A stretch of 33,258 nucleotides of DNA, from the IMG/VR virus record IMGVR_UViG_3300010885_048194, positions 1-33,258 of that record; one strand, given 5' to 3'. The notes under the pieces are model-generated. The model was not told the origin of the DNA, made no database searches, and worked only from the letters and a program-made list of their open reading frames with translations. Of this stretch, positions 2,118 through 18,360 are shown piece by piece. The position numbers were made by a program, and so were the translations under genes. Within the stretch, counting starts at the first letter, position 1, and each line of letters begins with the position of its first letter. Origin of the DNA: a virus.

Positions 2118-3260
2118 ATGGCTAGACGTCCTTCCTTAATCAAGCGTACCAAGGTCAAGAAACCGCGGGTCACAAAATCCGAGGCTTATCTCGTTAACCT
2201 AAAGTATATGGGTGAAGAACCCAATCTTAAAGGTGAGATTAACGAATCTCAATTGGGTAAAGCTCTCAACTGGTATAATACAATGGTCACGGTTGACGAG
2301 TGCAAAGAGTATACTCGCGACTGGCTCAAGACTAATAAACGTGATCGTGAAGCTAAGTTGATATCTAAAGTTCCTGACGCTTTTTTCCCTACAACTGTTG
2401 GTTCATTGACTCGTTTGATATCGCGTGGATGTACTCTTCAACTTTCTAACTATGCTTTCATTGAGAGCAAGTTGCAGGAAGCTTTCACACGTATTGTTGA
2501 GACTGACAAGCCTGAAGTTGTTGTAGAAAAAATCTCTATTCAAGATCGTATGCGTGAACGTGCACATGATATCATAGGTGAGATTGAAGGTATGATCGAT
2601 GATACTGACTATGGTACCAAGAGTGACTTCAGTCTTTATGATTATCTCAAGTCAAACGAAGTTCCTGCTATGTATATGTCACGTATCGTAGAGAAATATA
2701 TACCATGGCTCGGTGAGCTCATCGAAGCTCTTGATGGCAAGGATGATCAGCTTAAGGAAGCTTATGGCTACATGAAGAAAGCACAGATCAAGGAACGCAT
2801 CCTGTTCTTCGATCGTCTTATCGAGGATGCTGAGAAGTATGGCAACGTTGCTAAGAAGACTCGTGCGCCTCGTAAGCCTCGTCCTGTCTCTCTTGAAAAG
2901 AAACTAAAGTCATTCAAGTTCCAAAAAGAGAACAACGAGTTTAAGGTTGCGTCTGTTAATCCCGAGAAGGTTATTGGTGCACAAGAGCTCTGGACGTTTA
3001 ACACTAAGTACAAAACGGTTACAGTGTTCCGTGCACTTGATCGCGGTGGTCTTCAAGTCAAGGGTACTAGCATCATCAACTATGATGAGAAGACAAGCTC
3101 GACTCGAGGCACTGGACGTCAGACAGAAAAGATTGTACAAACCATTCTCAATGGTGGTAAGATTACATTGCGTAAGCTGATGGACGAACTCAAGGGCAAT
3201 CAATCCCTTCAGTTCCGTATCAATGAGAACACAATCCTGTTGAAGGTGGTGTCGCTATGA
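2118..3260 (+). CDS. Conserved-looking basic phage protein, function unknown
   Basis: This is a 380-aa protein, with Lys/Arg-rich segments at its N-terminus (MARRPSLIKRTKVKKPRV) and near residue 250 (AKKTRAPRKPRPVSLEKK). The middle part (about 130-235) is helical and acidic. The C-terminal part (about 255-380), with the motif NTKYKTVTVFRALDRGGLQVKG, looks like a compact beta-rich domain. I have the impression of similar proteins in T4-like phages of cyanobacteria and rhizobia, without known function. The basic patches suggest nucleic-acid binding, an inference only. I prefer ATG 2118 over the in-frame GTG 2109 because GAGAGG ends 8 nt before 2118. Arg codons are mainly CGT/CGC. It overlaps the next gene by ATGA. 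Confidence 0.72.
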   Translation: MARRPSLIKRTKVKKPRVTKSEAYLVNLKYMGEEPNLKGEINESQLGKALNWYNTMVTVDECKEYTRDWLKTNKRDREAKLISKVPDAFFPTTVGSLTRLISRGCTLQLSNYAFIESKLQEAFTRIVETDKPEVVVEKISIQDRMRERAHDIIGEIEGMIDDTDYGTKSDFSLYDYLKSNEVPAMYMSRIVEKYIPWLGELIEALDGKDDQLKEAYGYMKKAQIKERILFFDRLIEDAEKYGNVAKKTRAPRKPRPVSLEKKLKSFKFQKENNEFKVASVNPEKVIGAQELWTFNTKYKTVTVFRALDRGGLQVKGTSIINYDEKTSSTRGTGRQTEKIVQTILNGGKITLRKLMDELKGNQSLQFRINENTILLKVVSL

Positions 3261-3688
3261 ACATTGTAAATGAATGTAAGATGTTTACTCCTGAACAACT
3301 CAAACTTATAGAAGAGAAATACAATGGTAAGTTTGTGTTTGAGAGTTGCATCAAGGGTAAGAATGGTTGGTGCAATTTTCCATCAGCTATTTTCTATAGT
3401 GAAGAAGCACATCCAGAAGGATCAAACTACTTTGCTATCTGGTTCAATGACTCAGGTCATGCTATGATCTCAAATGGTATCACTGCGACTGAACCATTCT
3501 ACGGAATCATTGTTGACGACACTGCTTACTATAGCCGTTATCGTCACGACTATAAACAGTACGAAGGATTCTTCGTCGATGGTGGCCGCGACTACTCACG
3601 ATTTGGTGGTGAACGATTCTATGAGATTAAGAGTTGCACATTTAAAGTAGAAAAAGATAAATTAGCTGTGTACAATAATACACATTAA
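3257..3688 (+). CDS. Hypothetical phage protein, 143 aa
   Basis: The start overlaps the previous stop (ATGA), so the two are probably co-translated. The protein is rich in aromatic residues and Gly/Asp, with cysteines at 8, 30, 39 and 127. It appears beta-rich in the middle (GIIVDDTAYYSRYRHDYKQY), with no membrane segment or signal peptide. I do not recognise a family. It ends just before the TATAAATA box that precedes the tmRNA. The real-gene call rests on coupling, length and codon use. Confidence 0.7.
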   Translation: MNIVNECKMFTPEQLKLIEEKYNGKFVFESCIKGKNGWCNFPSAIFYSEEAHPEGSNYFAIWFNDSGHAMISNGITATEPFYGIIVDDTAYYSRYRHDYKQYEGFFVDGGRDYSRFGGERFYEIKSCTFKVEKDKLAVYNNTH

Positions 3689-3691
3689 TAG

Positions 3692-3699
3692 TATAAATA
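3692..3699 (+). promoter_or_regulatory. T4-type late promoter box upstream of the tmRNA
   Basis: TATAAATA is the exact T4 late promoter core. Using the T4 spacing (core at -13 to -6) transcription would begin near G3705, which is about where the tmRNA acceptor piece starts. An AT-rich genome produces some such octamers by chance, but this one lies in the short gap between a gene stop and an RNA gene. Confidence 0.55.
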
Positions 3700-3704
3700 A
3701 TTAT

Positions 3705-3771
3705 GCTGAGGTCGTTGAGGCGTATAGAATAAACGTTTCGGACGCGGGGGCAGTACCCGCCGCCTCCACCA
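3705..3771 (+). ncRNA. ssrA: tmRNA acceptor piece
   Basis: It includes TTTCGGACGCGGG, nearly identical to the same region of E. coli tmRNA. The T-stem GCGGG/CCCGC encloses a 7-nt loop (GGCAGTA), followed by the 3' acceptor strand CGCCTCC, discriminator A and encoded CCA. The loop is not the standard TTCRANY T-loop. The first bases (GCTGAGG, or TTATGCTGAGG from 3701) pair with CCTAAGC/CCTAAGCATGA at 3946-3956 in the coding piece, which would hold the two RNAs together. The 5' end is estimated from the late-promoter spacing. Confidence 0.85.
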
Positions 3772-7566: not shown

Positions 7567-7593
7567 AAGGGGGAGAAATCCCCCTTCTTTTTT
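7567..7593 (+). terminator. Strong Rho-independent terminator after gene 32, possibly bidirectional
   Basis: AAGGGGGA (7567-7574), a GAAA tetraloop (7575-7578), TCCCCCTT (7579-7586), then C and six T. It sits exactly between the convergent gp32 and tape-measure genes. The minus-strand side ends in TTTAAGTTT, so it may stop both transcripts. Confidence 0.9.
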
Positions 7594-10500
7594 ATGCAAC
7601 CATAGATCCGCCGGCAGCTCTTCTATTCATACTCATACTATTGCTTCCAGTACTTTCGACAAGAGAACCAGATACTCCAGAGGCCAATTGCTCCGCGAAT
7701 CCTCCCATTGGGACTGCAGTCAATGGCGTTCCTTCTTGACGACCACCAGCATTTGGAACTGTTCCACCTTGTAGTTCACCTTGTCCACCTGCAACTGTTA
7801 TATTTGGACCGGTTGAACTCTTAGATAACTCTGCATCAGCAGATCTTCTATTTAAATCTGCGCCTGTTTCAACAGGTGTAGTTGCAGGTTTAGCTGTATT
7901 TTCTGATGGTGGGCATGGTCCAGCGCCACTACCTCCAGCTGCAGGAGATGCTGATGCCATTGTTCCACCTGCGCCAGCACCTTCACTACCACCTGCTCCA
8001 CCTATACCTGGTGCTGCACTACCTGCTCCTGAACTTGGTGGTGCAGATGAACCTCCTCCTTCAGCGCCAGCGGCAGCTCCGCCTGCTGCACCTTGGCCGC
8101 CTGCACCAGCTGATGCCATTGCATCTTTACTTCCACCACCAACATATTCCCAGTGCCAAGGTTCGAATGGCTTTTGTAGAGGACCTTTAAATCCAAACTT
8201 GCTTGCATTCTGAACCATCCATTGGTAACCAGGACTTTTTTGGTTACTTCCGAAACTCATATCAAATGCAAGTCCCCAACCGTGATTTGATTTTCCTGGT
8301 GTAGCTGCTAAACCTGGTTTTCTTCTCTTAACATCTACCTGAGCTGCATAAGAACGATATGAATCTGTTATTCCAAGATCTACTTTATCATTTGTAGCTG
8401 CAGCTTTCATTGCTTTAAATGCGTCAGCAGCTACAGGTTGAGCTTTATGGCTGCCAATACCGACTGATGCAAGTCTGTCAGGTGACAACATACCATTTTG
8501 TCCAGTCTTGTCACCTGCGGCAGTTCCTGCACCTTCAACTGCAGGACCGCCTGAACCTGGTGGAGCAAGAGCAGGTGGGCCGCCTGCAGCTCCGCCACTA
8601 GGTGCACCACCCGGTGCACCACCCGGTGCAGCACCAGGAGCACCAGTAACACTACCCATTTGGTCAACACCTGGCATTCCGCCACCTGCTGGACTACCTC
8701 CTGCTGGAGTTGGACTACCACCTGTCGCAGCACCACCACCTTCAGCACCAGGAGTTGCAACAGAACCGCCACTTGGTGTTGCAGCTGGAGCACCAGTAAC
8801 ATTACCCATCTGATCAACACCAGCAGTGCCGGCACCACCTGTAGCACCAGCACCTCCAGCAAGATCTTTTTGTTCTTTATACTTTTTAAATTTAGCTTCT
8901 CTATCTGCTAAACCATTAAAGCCACCGTTAATTAACTTAGTAACAGCTCTTGTATTTTCAAAATCTCTTACTCGACTTTTAACTCTTGTTCTCCAGTAAG
9001 CAACAGCTAGTTTGGCTGCTATGTCAGGTTGTGAAGCAAGATCTGGATTATTTTCAAGGTCAGCGCCTATCATACCACCGAAAGCTCTATAGTTTGCTCT
9101 ACCGGTTAATTGTACATAACCTCTTCCTCTAAACTTATAACCGTCACCTGGTTGTGTGTTACCAAGATCTTTTCTTCCTTCATAACCTTTTTGTGCAGAA
9201 GTTGGTCCCCAAATTTCCTGAAGATATCTGAAGTCTCCACTTTCATGCGCCATTTGTGCCATGAACTGGGCTAACTCTGTTGCATCATTTATTCCTGCTG
9301 CTTTAGCTGCAGTCAACAATGATTGTTCTGAACCACCTCTTGCAGCTGTACCTCCTTTATCTCCACCAGCAGATGGTGTTACAGCACTAGGTGGACCAGA
9401 TGGAGTACCACCAGTTCCTGCGCCTGCACCACCTGGTGTTGTAGTTCCTGCACCAGTTGAAGTACCACCTTCTCCGCCAGCAGCAGCTTGCGGTGGTTGT
9501 TGTGCAGGTGGTTGTTCAATATTAGATGGAGGAGGTTCAGGAGCTTTACCTGTTTCAGGTTCACCTGCTTGAGATTTTTTCCATTCTTCTATATTACTTT
9601 TATCTGCTTCTAAAGCTTTCATATCTGGTGTACCACCATATATTTTTATGAAAGCTTCTATATATTCTGGTCCTGAACCTGTAAATGAACCACCATTTGC
9701 TTCAGCAACTTTTTTCCATACCCAAAATCTTAATTTTGATATTTCAATATCGATATTGTCTTTAATTCCTGCAGATGTTACTGCAGTTCTTAGACCTTGC
9801 ATAAATGAACTAAAGTCTTTAATTTTTCCTGATTTAACTGCAGCTATAAGATGCTCTCTTGGATCTTTAGAACTTATAGTAGCATCTTGCATAACAACTT
9901 CTGCATCTCTAGAATCAGCACCTGTATCAAATCTTTCTGTTGGAACAGGACTAGTCTTTTGATCTATAGCAGACTGCGCCATGGCAGCATCTTTAACATC
10001 AACAAAATTTTGTTGAACTGTGTCGATCTGTCTACCATCTTTAAGATTAATAATATTGCCTTTAATTCCGGCAACATCATCTTTTGTTAAACCAAATTTC
10101 TTTAATAATTCTGGAGGAGTTAATTTTTTATCTGGTAATGGTTTATCTTTAAATTTTTCTTGTTCTGCTTCAGGTCCTTGAATTACCTGTGATCTAGCAG
10201 CACCAAAATTCATCTTATTGTCAAACTCTTGTGCACCTTCAGGATTTTCGCGGCGTGCTTTTCCAGTTCTATAAGCTAAATAACCAAGACCACCAACCGC
10301 TGCAGCGCCTAATGCTAATGGCGCTGCAGCCGGCGCAACTGCCATAGCAGCCATTCTTGCACCAGTTCCTAAAGCAAATCTTCCAGCACTTCCTAAGAAT
10401 CTTCCGGCACCTCTTAAGAAACCACCACCTCTAGGTGCACCTCTTACACTAGGTCTTCCACCACCCCTAGTGCCTCTAGTACTTCTTCCTTTACGGTTGA

Positions 10501-11143
10501 TATCAATATTTGGTCCATCACCGCCATTTCCACCTTCTTCATCACCCATACCCTGCGCAGGCATAAATGAAGGACCCCCCGTATCTTCTGCTACAGCAGG
10601 TGCCTTACGATCCATTAGCATTCTATTAAGCATATTTTCCATTCTCTCTTGTGAGAATAGAATATCTTCTAGTTTTTGATCAATAGATCTAAGACTACCC
10701 TTCATGGTTCTAAGCATGTTAGCATTACTAGCATTACTGCTTTTTATATCTGATAACTGTTTAGAATCTTTTTCGGTTGCTGAATCTGTTTTTACTTTTT
10801 CTGCAGTGCTATTTTTCTTTTGGTCTTTTCCCATCGTGGCTATTTTGCCAAGAGGACCAAATTTTTCTGCTATAGCTTCTTTGCCTGCATTCTTGGCCAT
10901 CTGACCTAATGTTGGACCAGTTTTACCTTTTATTTTATCGCTGGCCTTTTGGCCCAAAATACCAAATTTTTCACCAATAGCATCAGCTACAGAAGCTCTG
11001 GCCATGCCTCTAACTCTTTGTCCTTTAGTTAGATTTGCTTCTGGATTATCCCAGTTTCTAGCATTCCTAGTACTTTCCATACGACTAGCACGTGATTCTA
11101 CTTGCTTTTGTCTCTCTGGTGTACGTTGCTTTTTATCTGCCAT
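7592..11143 (-). CDS. Tape-measure-like hub protein with GH19 and M15 peptidoglycan hydrolase domains
   Basis: This 1183-aa protein has several parts. Residues 1-180 are charged, with a coiled coil at about 128-180. A hydrophobic segment lies at about 262-292 and a mixed domain at 330-520. A Pro/Gly/Ala linker spans 530-605. A GH19 chitinase/lysozyme-like domain spans 605-760, with AHESGDF (E634) and a second acid in YEGRKDLGN (E655). After another Gly-rich linker (762-880), an M15 VanY-like peptidase spans 885-1002, with zinc ligands H954, D961 and the WHWE motif (H997). A Gly/Ala/Ser-rich tail follows. Hydrophobic segments and wall hydrolases are common in tape-measure proteins, and this gene directly follows a G/GT-like chaperone pair and gp48. 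It probably sets tail length and digests peptidoglycan on injection. T4's tape measure gp29 is about half this size and lacks such domains. Confidence 0.72.
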   Translation of the reverse strand: MADKKQRTPERQKQVESRASRMESTRNARNWDNPEANLTKGQRVRGMARASVADAIGEKFGILGQKASDKIKGKTGPTLGQMAKNAGKEAIAEKFGPLGKIATMGKDQKKNSTAEKVKTDSATEKDSKQLSDIKSSNASNANMLRTMKGSLRSIDQKLEDILFSQERMENMLNRMLMDRKAPAVAEDTGGPSFMPAQGMGDEEGGNGGDGPNIDINRKGRSTRGTRGGGRPSVRGAPRGGGFLRGAGRFLGSAGRFALGTGARMAAMAVAPAAAPLALGAAAVGGLGYLAYRTGKARRENPEGAQEFDNKMNFGAARSQVIQGPEAEQEKFKDKPLPDKKLTPPELLKKFGLTKDDVAGIKGNIINLKDGRQIDTVQQNFVDVKDAAMAQSAIDQKTSPVPTERFDTGADSRDAEVVMQDATISSKDPREHLIAAVKSGKIKDFSSFMQGLRTAVTSAGIKDNIDIEISKLRFWVWKKVAEANGGSFTGSGPEYIEAFIKIYGGTPDMKALEADKSNIEEWKKSQAGEPETGKAPEPPPSNIEQPPAQQPPQAAAGGEGGTSTGAGTTTPGGAGAGTGGTPSGPPSAVTPSAGGDKGGTAARGGSEQSLLTAAKAAGINDATELAQFMAQMAHESGDFRYLQEIWGPTSAQKGYEGRKDLGNTQPGDGYKFRGRGYVQLTGRANYRAFGGMIGADLENNPDLASQPDIAAKLAVAYWRTRVKSRVRDFENTRAVTKLINGGFNGLADREAKFKKYKEQKDLAGGAGATGGAGTAGVDQMGNVTGAPAATPSGGSVATPGAEGGGAATGGSPTPAGGSPAGGGMPGVDQMGSVTGAPGAAPGGAPGGAPSGGAAGGPPALAPPGSGGPAVEGAGTAAGDKTGQNGMLSPDRLASVGIGSHKAQPVAADAFKAMKAAATNDKVDLGITDSYRSYAAQVDVKRRKPGLAATPGKSNHGWGLAFDMSFGSNQKSPGYQWMVQNASKFGFKGPLQKPFEPWHWEYVGGGSKDAMASAGAGGQGAAGGAAAGAEGGGSSAPPSSGAGSAAPGIGGAGGSEGAGAGGTMASASPAAGGSGAGPCPPSENTAKPATTPVETGADLNRRSADAELSKSSTGPNITVAGGQGELQGGTVPNAGGRQEGTPLTAVPMGGFAEQLASGVSGSLVESTGSNSMSMNRRAAGGSMVA
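8642..8818 (-). repeat. Two copies of a GVDQMGxVTGAP motif in the tape-measure-like protein
   Basis: VDQMGNVTG (residues 776-784; DNA 8792-8818) and VDQMGSVTG (826-834; DNA 8642-8668) lie in the Gly/Ala/Pro linker between the GH19 and M15 domains. The surrounding low-complexity sequence varies while this core does not. The same motif ends the gp54-like protein (14678-14704). Confidence 0.75.
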
Positions 11144-11315
11144 TTCTCTTCGCTTTTTGTTCGTCTTCTATTTTCTTAAGATAATCATTCAGAAGAGCAA
11201 CATAAATGTCACGTTCAAATGGTATAATATTTTCAACTTCTTCTATTGAATATTTATGATGCTGAGCCAAGCTAAATACAGTCTTATAATAGTTCTCTAG
11301 AGTATTGTGACTCAG
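11133..11315 (-). CDS. Short ORF after gp26, probably expressed by -1 frameshift (tail chaperone C-terminal part)
   Basis: An open frame of about 60 codons, SHNTLENYYKTVFSLAQHH then KYSIEEVENIIPFERDIYVALL, fills the gap between gp26 and the tape-measure-like gene. It has no ATG, GTG or TTG before residue 16. Its first possible start is CTG at 11315-11313, inside the gp26 stop (CTGA). The frame is -1 relative to gp26 and is open from the U7 run at 11324-11330, so a gp26-fusion of about 298 aa could be made. The Y/W-S-x-E-E-V-x-x-(M/I)-P pattern resembles the T parts of G/GT tail chaperones. It overlaps the tape-measure ATG by 11 nt. It is too short for T4 gp51, so I give no symbol. Confidence 0.7.
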   Translation of the reverse strand: MSHNTLENYYKTVFSLAQHHKYSIEEVENIIPFERDIYVALLNDYLKKIEDEQKAKRNGR

Positions 11316-12028
11316 CGAAATGTAAAAAAATCATTTAACGTAGATAGTATAATCTTCCTATCGTTACCTAGTGAATTTTTATAGTCTATTTCATATTTAA
11401 GAGATGGTGTATTATTAAAGAAGTCCTTAATATTATCATATGCTTTTATCGGAAGACTTTCTAAAAATTCGTCTAATTCTTTTTCACTAGCATTTTTAAT
11501 ATCATGTATTTCATCACCAACAAAGATCTTATCAATGCAGGATTTTATAACATAATCTACTAATTCATTTAAATTTTCAGACTTTAAGAGCATCTGTTTA
11601 TCATCATACAACTTTGCTGATGGATACTTTAACTGAACACTGATCTTATCATCAATTTTTATTGTGTTAGATATTGATTCAGGATATGATACTTCTATCT
11701 TTTCTAAGTTAATTTGAAAATCATAAACTTTCTGATCTTCATTATCAATATATGAAACATTACTGATATTGCTTATTGAGAATGATCTTATCTTTAAGAA
11801 CAAATATTCTAAATCAAAGATAGTAAACTCATTAACATTTGTATTAGGTGTTACAATACAGTTATTAACAACCTGTTTAATGGCTGTAAAGATATCAGAT
11901 TCATCTTTGCTTTCTTTGGCAAAGAGAAGTATCTTCTCTTCCTTAACCAACATAGGTCTTAATCTAATCTTTTTCTTTAATGATGGTACATTCACATCAA
12001 TTGTTGGATGCGATATCTTAGGTAACAT
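11312..12028 (-). CDS. 26: gp26-like baseplate hub / tail chaperone protein
   Basis: This 238-aa protein has the start pattern of the T4 baseplate-protein family that includes gp26: MLPKISHPTIDVNVPSLKKK, then RLRPMLVKEEKILLFAKES and a central LEYLFLKIRSFSISN. T4 gp26 is about 208 aa and is needed for hub assembly. Its position, just before a tape-measure-like gene and with a -1 overlapping ORF, is the same as that of the G gene of lambda-type tails, so it may be a tape-measure chaperone. GGAGA lies 6 nt before the ATG. Its last codons contain the U7 slippery run. Confidence 0.78.
   Translation of the reverse strand: MLPKISHPTIDVNVPSLKKKIRLRPMLVKEEKILLFAKESKDESDIFTAIKQVVNNCIVTPNTNVNEFTIFDLEYLFLKIRSFSISNISNVSYIDNEDQKVYDFQINLEKIEVSYPESISNTIKIDDKISVQLKYPSAKLYDDKQMLLKSENLNELVDYVIKSCIDKIFVGDEIHDIKNASEKELDEFLESLPIKAYDNIKDFFNNTPSLKYEIDYKNSLGNDRKIILSTLNDFFTFR
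11324..11330 (-). other. Putative -1 ribosomal frameshift site (U UUU UUU)
   Basis: In the gp26 frame the codons read GAT TTT TTT ACA, so the heptamer is T_TTT_TTT, a valid X_XXY_YYZ slippery site five codons before the gp26 stop. Slipping back one base joins exactly the frame of the 60-codon ORF. Downstream, GAGT/ACTC can form a small hairpin around CACAAT, and GCTGAG can pair with CTCAGC further on as a possible stimulator. Confidence 0.6.
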
Positions 12029-16847: not shown

Positions 16848-17831
16848 ATGAATTTCTTTTGGGCAGAAATAGTTGATGTTGAAAATGATGATGAAAAAGC
16901 AGGCCGCGCAAAGATTAGAATTATGGGAGACCAGACCGAATTAAAGGATGGTGAACTCAGATATGCTCGTCCTTTATTTCCAGTAACTTGTGCTTCTAAA
17001 GATGGTGCTGGTGCAACACCTGGTTATCAAAAAGGCACAAGAGTATTAGGAATGTTTATCGATAATGATAAACAAATTCCATACATATTATCAACAGCAC
17101 CTGGTGCCGGTAAACATGGAAGTCTTAGTCAAGAAGGAAGAGATATTCCTGGGGGAATATCAAAAGATCCTGGAAAATTTAATATTAAAACAGAAGATTT
17201 AAGATATATTGTATCTGCTACAGGTGAAAGAAAACTTGACACAAAAGGTATAACACAGTTTGCAAAAAAAGAAGCTAATGGACCTTCTAAATTTGGTGAT
17301 CTTAAAACTCTTGGCAGCAAAATACCAACTGGTTCAAATGCTATAGATCAGATTAAAAAGATAGATCCATCAAATGCTGCTGGTGCTTTAGGTGCTGGAG
17401 CTCTTACTATGATGAAGAGTTTACAAAATTCTCCTGCTGGAAAAGCACTTAACATGGTTGGCGCTGCTGCATTCAAGCAAGTTTTAAGTCAGATATCACA
17501 GAATAAAAAAGAAGATAATAGTAACAATTTATTATTACAACTAATAACATTATTAGAATTAGTAAATCAAGTTATAAAAACAATTGATTTTATAAAACCA
17601 ATAGATGGTTCTACATATAGATCAAACTCGAGTACTATTATAAAATCTACAGCTAATTTAAAAAATCAAATATTGTATAATAGCGAATGTACGAGAATAG
17701 CAGATCTTGGCGATAAGATAGCAGATACAGGATCTGCTAAATTAGTTCAGCATGTAACAATAATTAAGAATGATTCAATAAAATTAAGAGAAACTATATC
17801 TGCCCAAATTCAAAGTTTAAAGAAGGTATAA
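16848..17831 (+). CDS. 5: gp5 N-terminal OB-fold spike protein, without lysozyme domain
   Basis: This 327-aa protein begins FFWAEIVDVENDDEKAGRAK and continues with RPLFPVTCASK and RVLGMFIDNDKQIPYILS. That is the OB-fold by which gp5 binds gp27. T4 gp5 (575 aa) continues with a lysozyme and then a beta-helix. Here the rest (120-327) is Ala/Gly- and Lys-rich, then helical (LLLQLITLLELVNQVIK near 230), with no lysozyme motif. The needle is a separate gene directly downstream. AAGGAA precedes the ATG. Confidence 0.82.
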   Translation: MNFFWAEIVDVENDDEKAGRAKIRIMGDQTELKDGELRYARPLFPVTCASKDGAGATPGYQKGTRVLGMFIDNDKQIPYILSTAPGAGKHGSLSQEGRDIPGGISKDPGKFNIKTEDLRYIVSATGERKLDTKGITQFAKKEANGPSKFGDLKTLGSKIPTGSNAIDQIKKIDPSNAAGALGAGALTMMKSLQNSPAGKALNMVGAAAFKQVLSQISQNKKEDNSNNLLLQLITLLELVNQVIKTIDFIKPIDGSTYRSNSSTIIKSTANLKNQILYNSECTRIADLGDKIADTGSAKLVQHVTIIKNDSIKLRETISAQIQSLKKV

Positions 17832-17832
17832 T

Positions 17833-18360
17833 ATGACTATTCAAAGAGATGATGAAAGATTACCAGAAACAACTTTCAACGCAAAATATTCTAAAGTAAA
17901 TGTGCAAGAATCTCCAGGTGGTATTAGAACTACTATGGATGATACTGATGGTGCAAAGAGATATAGAGTTGAACATCCATCTGGCACGTATACAGAGATA
18001 TCTGATGATGGAAAATATGTATCTGTATGTGTTGCTAACAAGCAAGATTACTTGAAGGGTGGATTAACTCTTACCATTCAGGAAAATGGCGATATAAAAA
18101 TAGGTGGACACGCACGATTGGCCGTTGGTTCTGGCGCACATGTTGAAATCGGTGGTGATGCATCTATTGCAGTCGGCGGTGATGCTCTTGTTCATGCTCA
18201 TGGAAATCTTAAGATGGCAGGTGGTGATGTTTATATTGGTTCACGTGGAAATATGGATCTAAATTGTTCAGGAGATTTTAATCTTCTTGTGGGCGGCTCA
18301 ACGAATATTGGTTCAGATGGCAATATGAAAGCAACGGCACCAAGGATTGATCTAAACTAA
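17833..18360 (+). CDS. gp5 C-terminal beta-helix needle, separately encoded
   Basis: This is a 175-aa spike protein. Residues about 45-95 form the lead-in beta strands (YRVEHPSGTYTEISDDGKYV). From about 85 onward run G-rich strand repeats (GDIKIGGHARLAVGSGAHVEI, then GGDASIAVGGDALVHAHGN and GGDVYIGSRGN) typical of the triple-stranded beta-helix of T4 gp5C. It should trimerise into the membrane-piercing needle below the hub. It follows the OB-fold gene by one base and precedes the PAAR tip, so order matches spike assembly. Confidence 0.88.
   Translation: MTIQRDDERLPETTFNAKYSKVNVQESPGGIRTTMDDTDGAKRYRVEHPSGTYTEISDDGKYVSVCVANKQDYLKGGLTLTIQENGDIKIGGHARLAVGSGAHVEIGGDASIAVGGDALVHAHGNLKMAGGDVYIGSRGNMDLNCSGDFNLLVGGSTNIGSDGNMKATAPRIDLN

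Follow-up and report, generated by a model that had tools for sequence, protein, structure and literature searches.

In an uncultivated T4-like phage, the gp26 gene very probably (at about 0.93) encodes a two-form tail assembly chaperone of the G/GT type, with programmed -1 ribosomal frameshifting carrying gp26 into a gp51 segment. This reading builds on a conserved slip site, conserved coding in the -1 frame, a stem-loop, the gp51 identity of the extension and the paralogy of the T4 proteins, all of them established by sequence comparison. The DNA analyzed, here called the window, is the whole 33,258-nt IMG/VR virus record IMGVR_UViG_3300010885_048194. The locus has the coding capacity for a short form and a C-terminally extended long form, and its features are arranged as follows.

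11312..12028, minus strand: gp26, the short form (TAC-N like), 238 aa, in the 0 frame; PF12322 and phrog_150
11324..11330, minus strand: slippery heptamer T_TTT_TTT, in 0-frame phase
11312..11314, minus strand: 0-frame stop codon TGA of gp26, three codons past the slip site, sharing bases with the 5' arm of the stem
11308..11316, minus strand: 5' arm of the stem, GCUGAGUCA, 7 nt past the heptamer
11261..11269, minus strand: 3' arm of the stem, UGGCUCAGC
11133..11324, minus strand: -1 extension, with 63 aa past the slip (YISLSH...KRNGR) and a stop codon, the C-terminal segment of gp51; phrog_634 and in-phase homologs
11268..11270, minus strand: TTG, first start candidate of the -1 frame, within a conserved peptide and overlapping the 3' arm of the stem
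7592..11143, minus strand: tape-measure candidate, 1183 aa, with a coil-like N-terminus, a hydrophobic stretch and GH19 and VanY domains; from position and architecture

Most ribosomes would make gp26 and stop after 238 aa. A presumed minority, aided by the stem-loop that begins 7 nt downstream, would slip back one base on U_UUU_UUU. These ribosomes would read past the UGA and on through the gp51-like C-terminal segment. The predicted gp26-gp51 fusion has 298 aa, in agreement with the length of about 298 aa proposed in an earlier note on this DNA. In lambda, the short form of the G/GT chaperone coats the tape measure and the long form recruits tube subunits. By analogy, the short form of the present phage would coat the tape-measure/hub assembly, and the extension would recruit tail-tube subunits.

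The gp26 of the window matches the profiles PF12322 T4_baseplate (2e-50) and phrog_150, baseplate hub (1.4e-50). The remaining genes of the window include T4-like tail tube, baseplate hub and wedge genes. Among them, a gp5-like hub/tail lysozyme (phrog_430) is found as two adjoining ORFs on the plus strand, 16848-17828 and 17833-18357, which match parts 18-118 and 325-485 of a profile of 868 positions. The 3' end of gp26 reads GAT TTT TTT ACA TTT CGC TGA. Immediately 5' of the T7 run stands a TGA in the -1 frame, so that the run is exactly where this frame becomes open. From there it continues without a stop for 65 codons (FFYISLSH...KRNGR), close to the 63 or so anticipated, and ends at a stop codon at 11133-11135, leaving an overlap of 11 nt with the next gene (ATG at 11141-11143). 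The earlier note had not recognized the identity of the extension. The segment matches phrog_634 (PHROG 634), 'baseplate hub assembly catalyst', at 5.9e-25, and corresponds to the C-terminus of T4 gp51. Its weaker matches to the C-termini of phrog_150 and phrog_23772 suggest that some members of these families carry both parts in one frame. Homologous in-phase extensions were obtained from 49 representative loci.

The comparison covered 175 related loci with 122 distinct gp26 proteins, whose identities fall to about 27%. The loci come from freshwater and marine T4-like phages, cyanophages, and Vibrio, Aeromonas, Caulobacter, Sinorhizobium and Pelagibacter phages. The patterns used to collect the loci left the slip site out. 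Every one of the 175 loci has an in-frame NNT TTT TTY (T_TTT_TTY) with an open -1 frame, which bears out the view that T_TTT_TTT in gp26 is a valid slippery site in the correct phase. The gp26 stop codon follows 1-8 codons after the heptamer, mostly 1-3, with a single case of 8. Other Phe-Phe pairs in the same gp26 genes are slippery in only 2 of 93 cases. Under a codon-usage null, the conservation of the heptamer has a log10 P of about -42 for 122 sequences and about -7 for 17 clusters below 50% identity, values that are indicative only, since the sequences are treated as independent. All 80 IMG/VR relatives found with the gp26 of the window keep GAT TTT TTT (once as TTT TTC), and their -1 frame is interrupted only by contig ends or comparable truncations. 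The isolates S-PM2, P-RSM6, P-TIM68, ValKK3, Aeh1, phiM12, Cr30 and Mosig share this layout, with T_TTT_TTY. The window contains fewer T7 runs than expected (16 against 33), and a chance abundance of such runs was rejected as a trivial source of the slip site. In the clade of the window, purifying selection acts on the -1 frame ahead of any possible start codon, with 3901 synonymous against 1784 nonsynonymous single-base codon differences, and conserved -1 coding extends back to the slip site.

In the window, GCUGAGUCA pairs with UGGCUCAGC over 9 bp at -14.2 kcal/mol, and the spacer of 7 nt lies inside the 5-9 nt expected for a stimulator of -1 frameshifting. Taken alone against dinucleotide shuffles, this stem is moderately strong, with a z of only -1.74, and the case for it therefore comes from comparison across relatives. 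When the sequences of the window clade were shuffled with the codons of the -1 frame exchanged synonymously, z was -17.3, and -15.8 in a repeat with region controls; the mean folding energy, -15.3 kcal/mol for the native sequences, was higher after shuffling, at about -8 kcal/mol. Three control regions (the 72 nt that follow, the 72 nt on the upstream side and the middle of gp26) gave z values of -0.8 to -1.6, one of them -0.8 and two -1.6. Covariation was observed in the same clade: three pairs are changed on both sides, and 34 double-change cells were counted versus 8.9 after shuffling. Sliding one arm of the stem lowered pairing from 85% to 22-40%. Read in its simplest register, the 9-bp stem is disrupted in roughly a third of the sequences of the window clade, and some of these sequences have an alternative partner. 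No consensus structure came out of RNAalifold for this clade, probably because part of it uses other partners, and this outcome is in line with lineage-specific stems. The stem was thereafter judged by counts of the named stem and by the codon-shuffle test. The cyanophages have different stems with the same folding signal (z -14.9 with codon shuffles) and a less uniform spacing between heptamer and stem. Their loci also fold in excess 72-144 nt past the slip site (z -8.4 in this next stretch of 72 nt), on the basis of which the structured region of the cyanophages may be longer, or may form a pseudoknot.

T4 itself shows another arrangement of the same two products. In alignments to the fused profile, T4 gp26 (208 aa) reaches the FF junction and stops there (E 9e-22), whereas T4 gp51 (249 aa) aligns across the junction to the C-terminus (E 2e-20). 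The gp26 and gp51 of T4-like phages are paralogs (E 5e-17). Since gp51 spans the junction, gp26 ends there and the two are paralogous, T4 is, by this comparison, a phage that makes the two forms from two genes, 26 for the short and 51 for the long form. The T4 proteins are thus homologous to the short form and the fused long form of the window. They are encoded by two paralogous genes on opposite strands without a frameshift, whereas the phage of the window has one locus and a predicted frameshift. Both T4 proteins are listed as hub assembly chaperones, and gp51 is needed for assembly and is not in the particle (PMC3004832). The link between gp26 and tail chaperones drawn in the earlier note holds up in the comparative data, the T4 paralogy among them. 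Besides T4 gp51, the Campylobacter phage CPt10 has a natural long form in one frame. In one T4-like locus (3001-3746), gp51 is broken, with an ORF of 120 aa although homology reaches residue 247, and BFVD holds gp51 pieces of 120 and 107 aa for Klebsiella phage KPV15. AlphaFold models were good for the gp26 of the window (pLDDT 89.5) and for a T4-like gp51 (86.7). A Foldseek search of the PDB gave nothing significant, the HK97 tail assembly chaperone 2OB9 having the top probability of 0.33 (E = 1.5), and PDB sequence searches with the gp51 and gp26 profiles gave nothing useful.

Three other explanations of the locus have to be considered. The -1 ORF could be a separate small gene, gp51, with its own internal start or with termination-reinitiation after the gp26 stop. 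It is listed as its own CDS in most of the deposited records inspected, an ATG lies 11 nt past the slip in 36 of 120 loci (part of the cyanophage clade), where a separate protein could also be made, and the gp26 stop of Vibrio ValKK3 lies in a TAATG. However, up to 54 nt past the slip, the -1 frame has no ATG in 67 of the 120 loci and no ATG, GTG or TTG in 38, and a start with a Shine-Dalgarno-like motif is present in only 7. In the comparison of relatives that the earlier note had proposed as a check, the slip site is conserved while the start codon is not. Its statement that the short ORF lacks a nearby start also holds, the first ATG, GTG or TTG in the -1 frame of the window being the TTG at 11270-11268, 45 codons from the end of the frame and within both the conserved peptide and the stem. 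Even loci with a -1-frame ATG keep the heptamer unchanged, the -1 coding is conserved back to the slip site, and T4 gp51 is a full-length fusion rather than a C-terminal fragment. Taken together, a separate gene is very improbable.

Transcriptional slippage, in which RNA polymerase adds an extra U on the T7 run of some mRNAs that are then read in the -1 frame, would suit the seven consecutive Ts found in nearly all of the window clade. The cyanophage, Vibrio and Aeromonas relatives, however, have only T6 followed by C, still in the phase T_TTT_TTC, and a selected stem at a fixed 7-nt spacing fits a ribosomal stimulator and is not needed by a polymerase, which makes this explanation very improbable. 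The splitting of a single gene by an assembly or homopolymer error would account for the homopolymer at the break and for the T4 gp51 and CPt10 homologs in one frame. The chance of such an error is close to nil, as the identical break recurs in 175 loci including finished isolate genomes; the latter rule out a sequencing error. Within the frameshift reading, we lean slightly, at odds a little better than even, towards a broader proposal: gp26-gp51 frameshifting in T4-like phages is driven by a selected, covarying stem about 7 nt past the slip site, its sequence and fold were replaced between clades with the slip site and approximate position kept fixed, and the separate genes of T4 reflect a duplication that made the frameshift unnecessary.

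The layout of the locus resembles that of lambda G/GT, with a small tail gene, a -1 slip near its 3' end, a startless extension and a tape measure, here a candidate, as the next gene. The likeness is one of layout, and the window differs in its U_UUU_UUU slip site, its long gp26 domain (238 aa) and its covarying stem-loop. The slip site of lambda G/GT differs from U_UUU_UUU. The lambda frameshift and its conserved relatives were reportedly treated by Xu, Hendrix and Duda in 2004.

The tail assembly chaperones of T4-like phages were identified by Vladimirov, Gautam and Davidson (2022, Virology 566:9-15), a study considered here as it is represented in PMC10885494 and PMC12846349. According to these accounts, some T4-like phages have a short gene and a long fusion gene instead of a frameshift (PMC10885494), and poly-T -1 slip signals occur in T4-like chaperone genes (PMC12846349). 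The gp26/gp51 homologs fit both arrangements, and the present phage is an uncultivated relative. The idea of a frameshifted chaperone is thus already published, T4-like phages included, as far as these accounts convey the study, and the earlier note, which knew of no such frameshifting described for T4-type phages, has to be corrected on this point. The assignment of gp26 as the short and gp51 as the long form is drawn from the present alignments, and the covarying stimulatory stem may be new to description. In Pakpunavirus Adele and the Vandenendeviridae, too, the short chaperone gene ends with a poly-T motif and has a conserved -1 frameshift there. The next ORF is likewise annotated as a separate gene, but the phage family is another one and the motif is GTTTTT (PMC12846349).

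These results indicate that what stands as a small gp51 ORF in cyanophage genomes and related ones is one half of a frameshift product, a half that is routinely annotated as a gene of its own or missed, as in Aeromonas phage Aeh1. In the deposited record of this phage, the -1 extension ORF (1835-2002 of the locus) is unannotated, with the slip site and the -1 frame intact. The covarying RNA element offers a tractable handle on how the ratio of short to long form is set.

Regarding the G/GT-like gene order claimed in the earlier note, the small gene and the frameshift extension stand, and the tape measure is a candidate assigned from position and architecture (7592-11143). A PHROG search of the genes downstream identified none confidently as a tape measure. 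Relatives of the next gene in Cr30 and phiM12 carry a tape-measure annotation, and in some loci a small membrane gene intervenes. In five loci, the position right after the -1 ORF, where the window has its tape-measure candidate, is taken by a predicted membrane (holin-like) gene of 155-170 aa. The candidate has a GH19 chitinase-like domain at residues ~612-804 and a VanY D,D-carboxypeptidase domain at ~899-1002, and because of these two domains, cell-wall cutting may reside on this protein.
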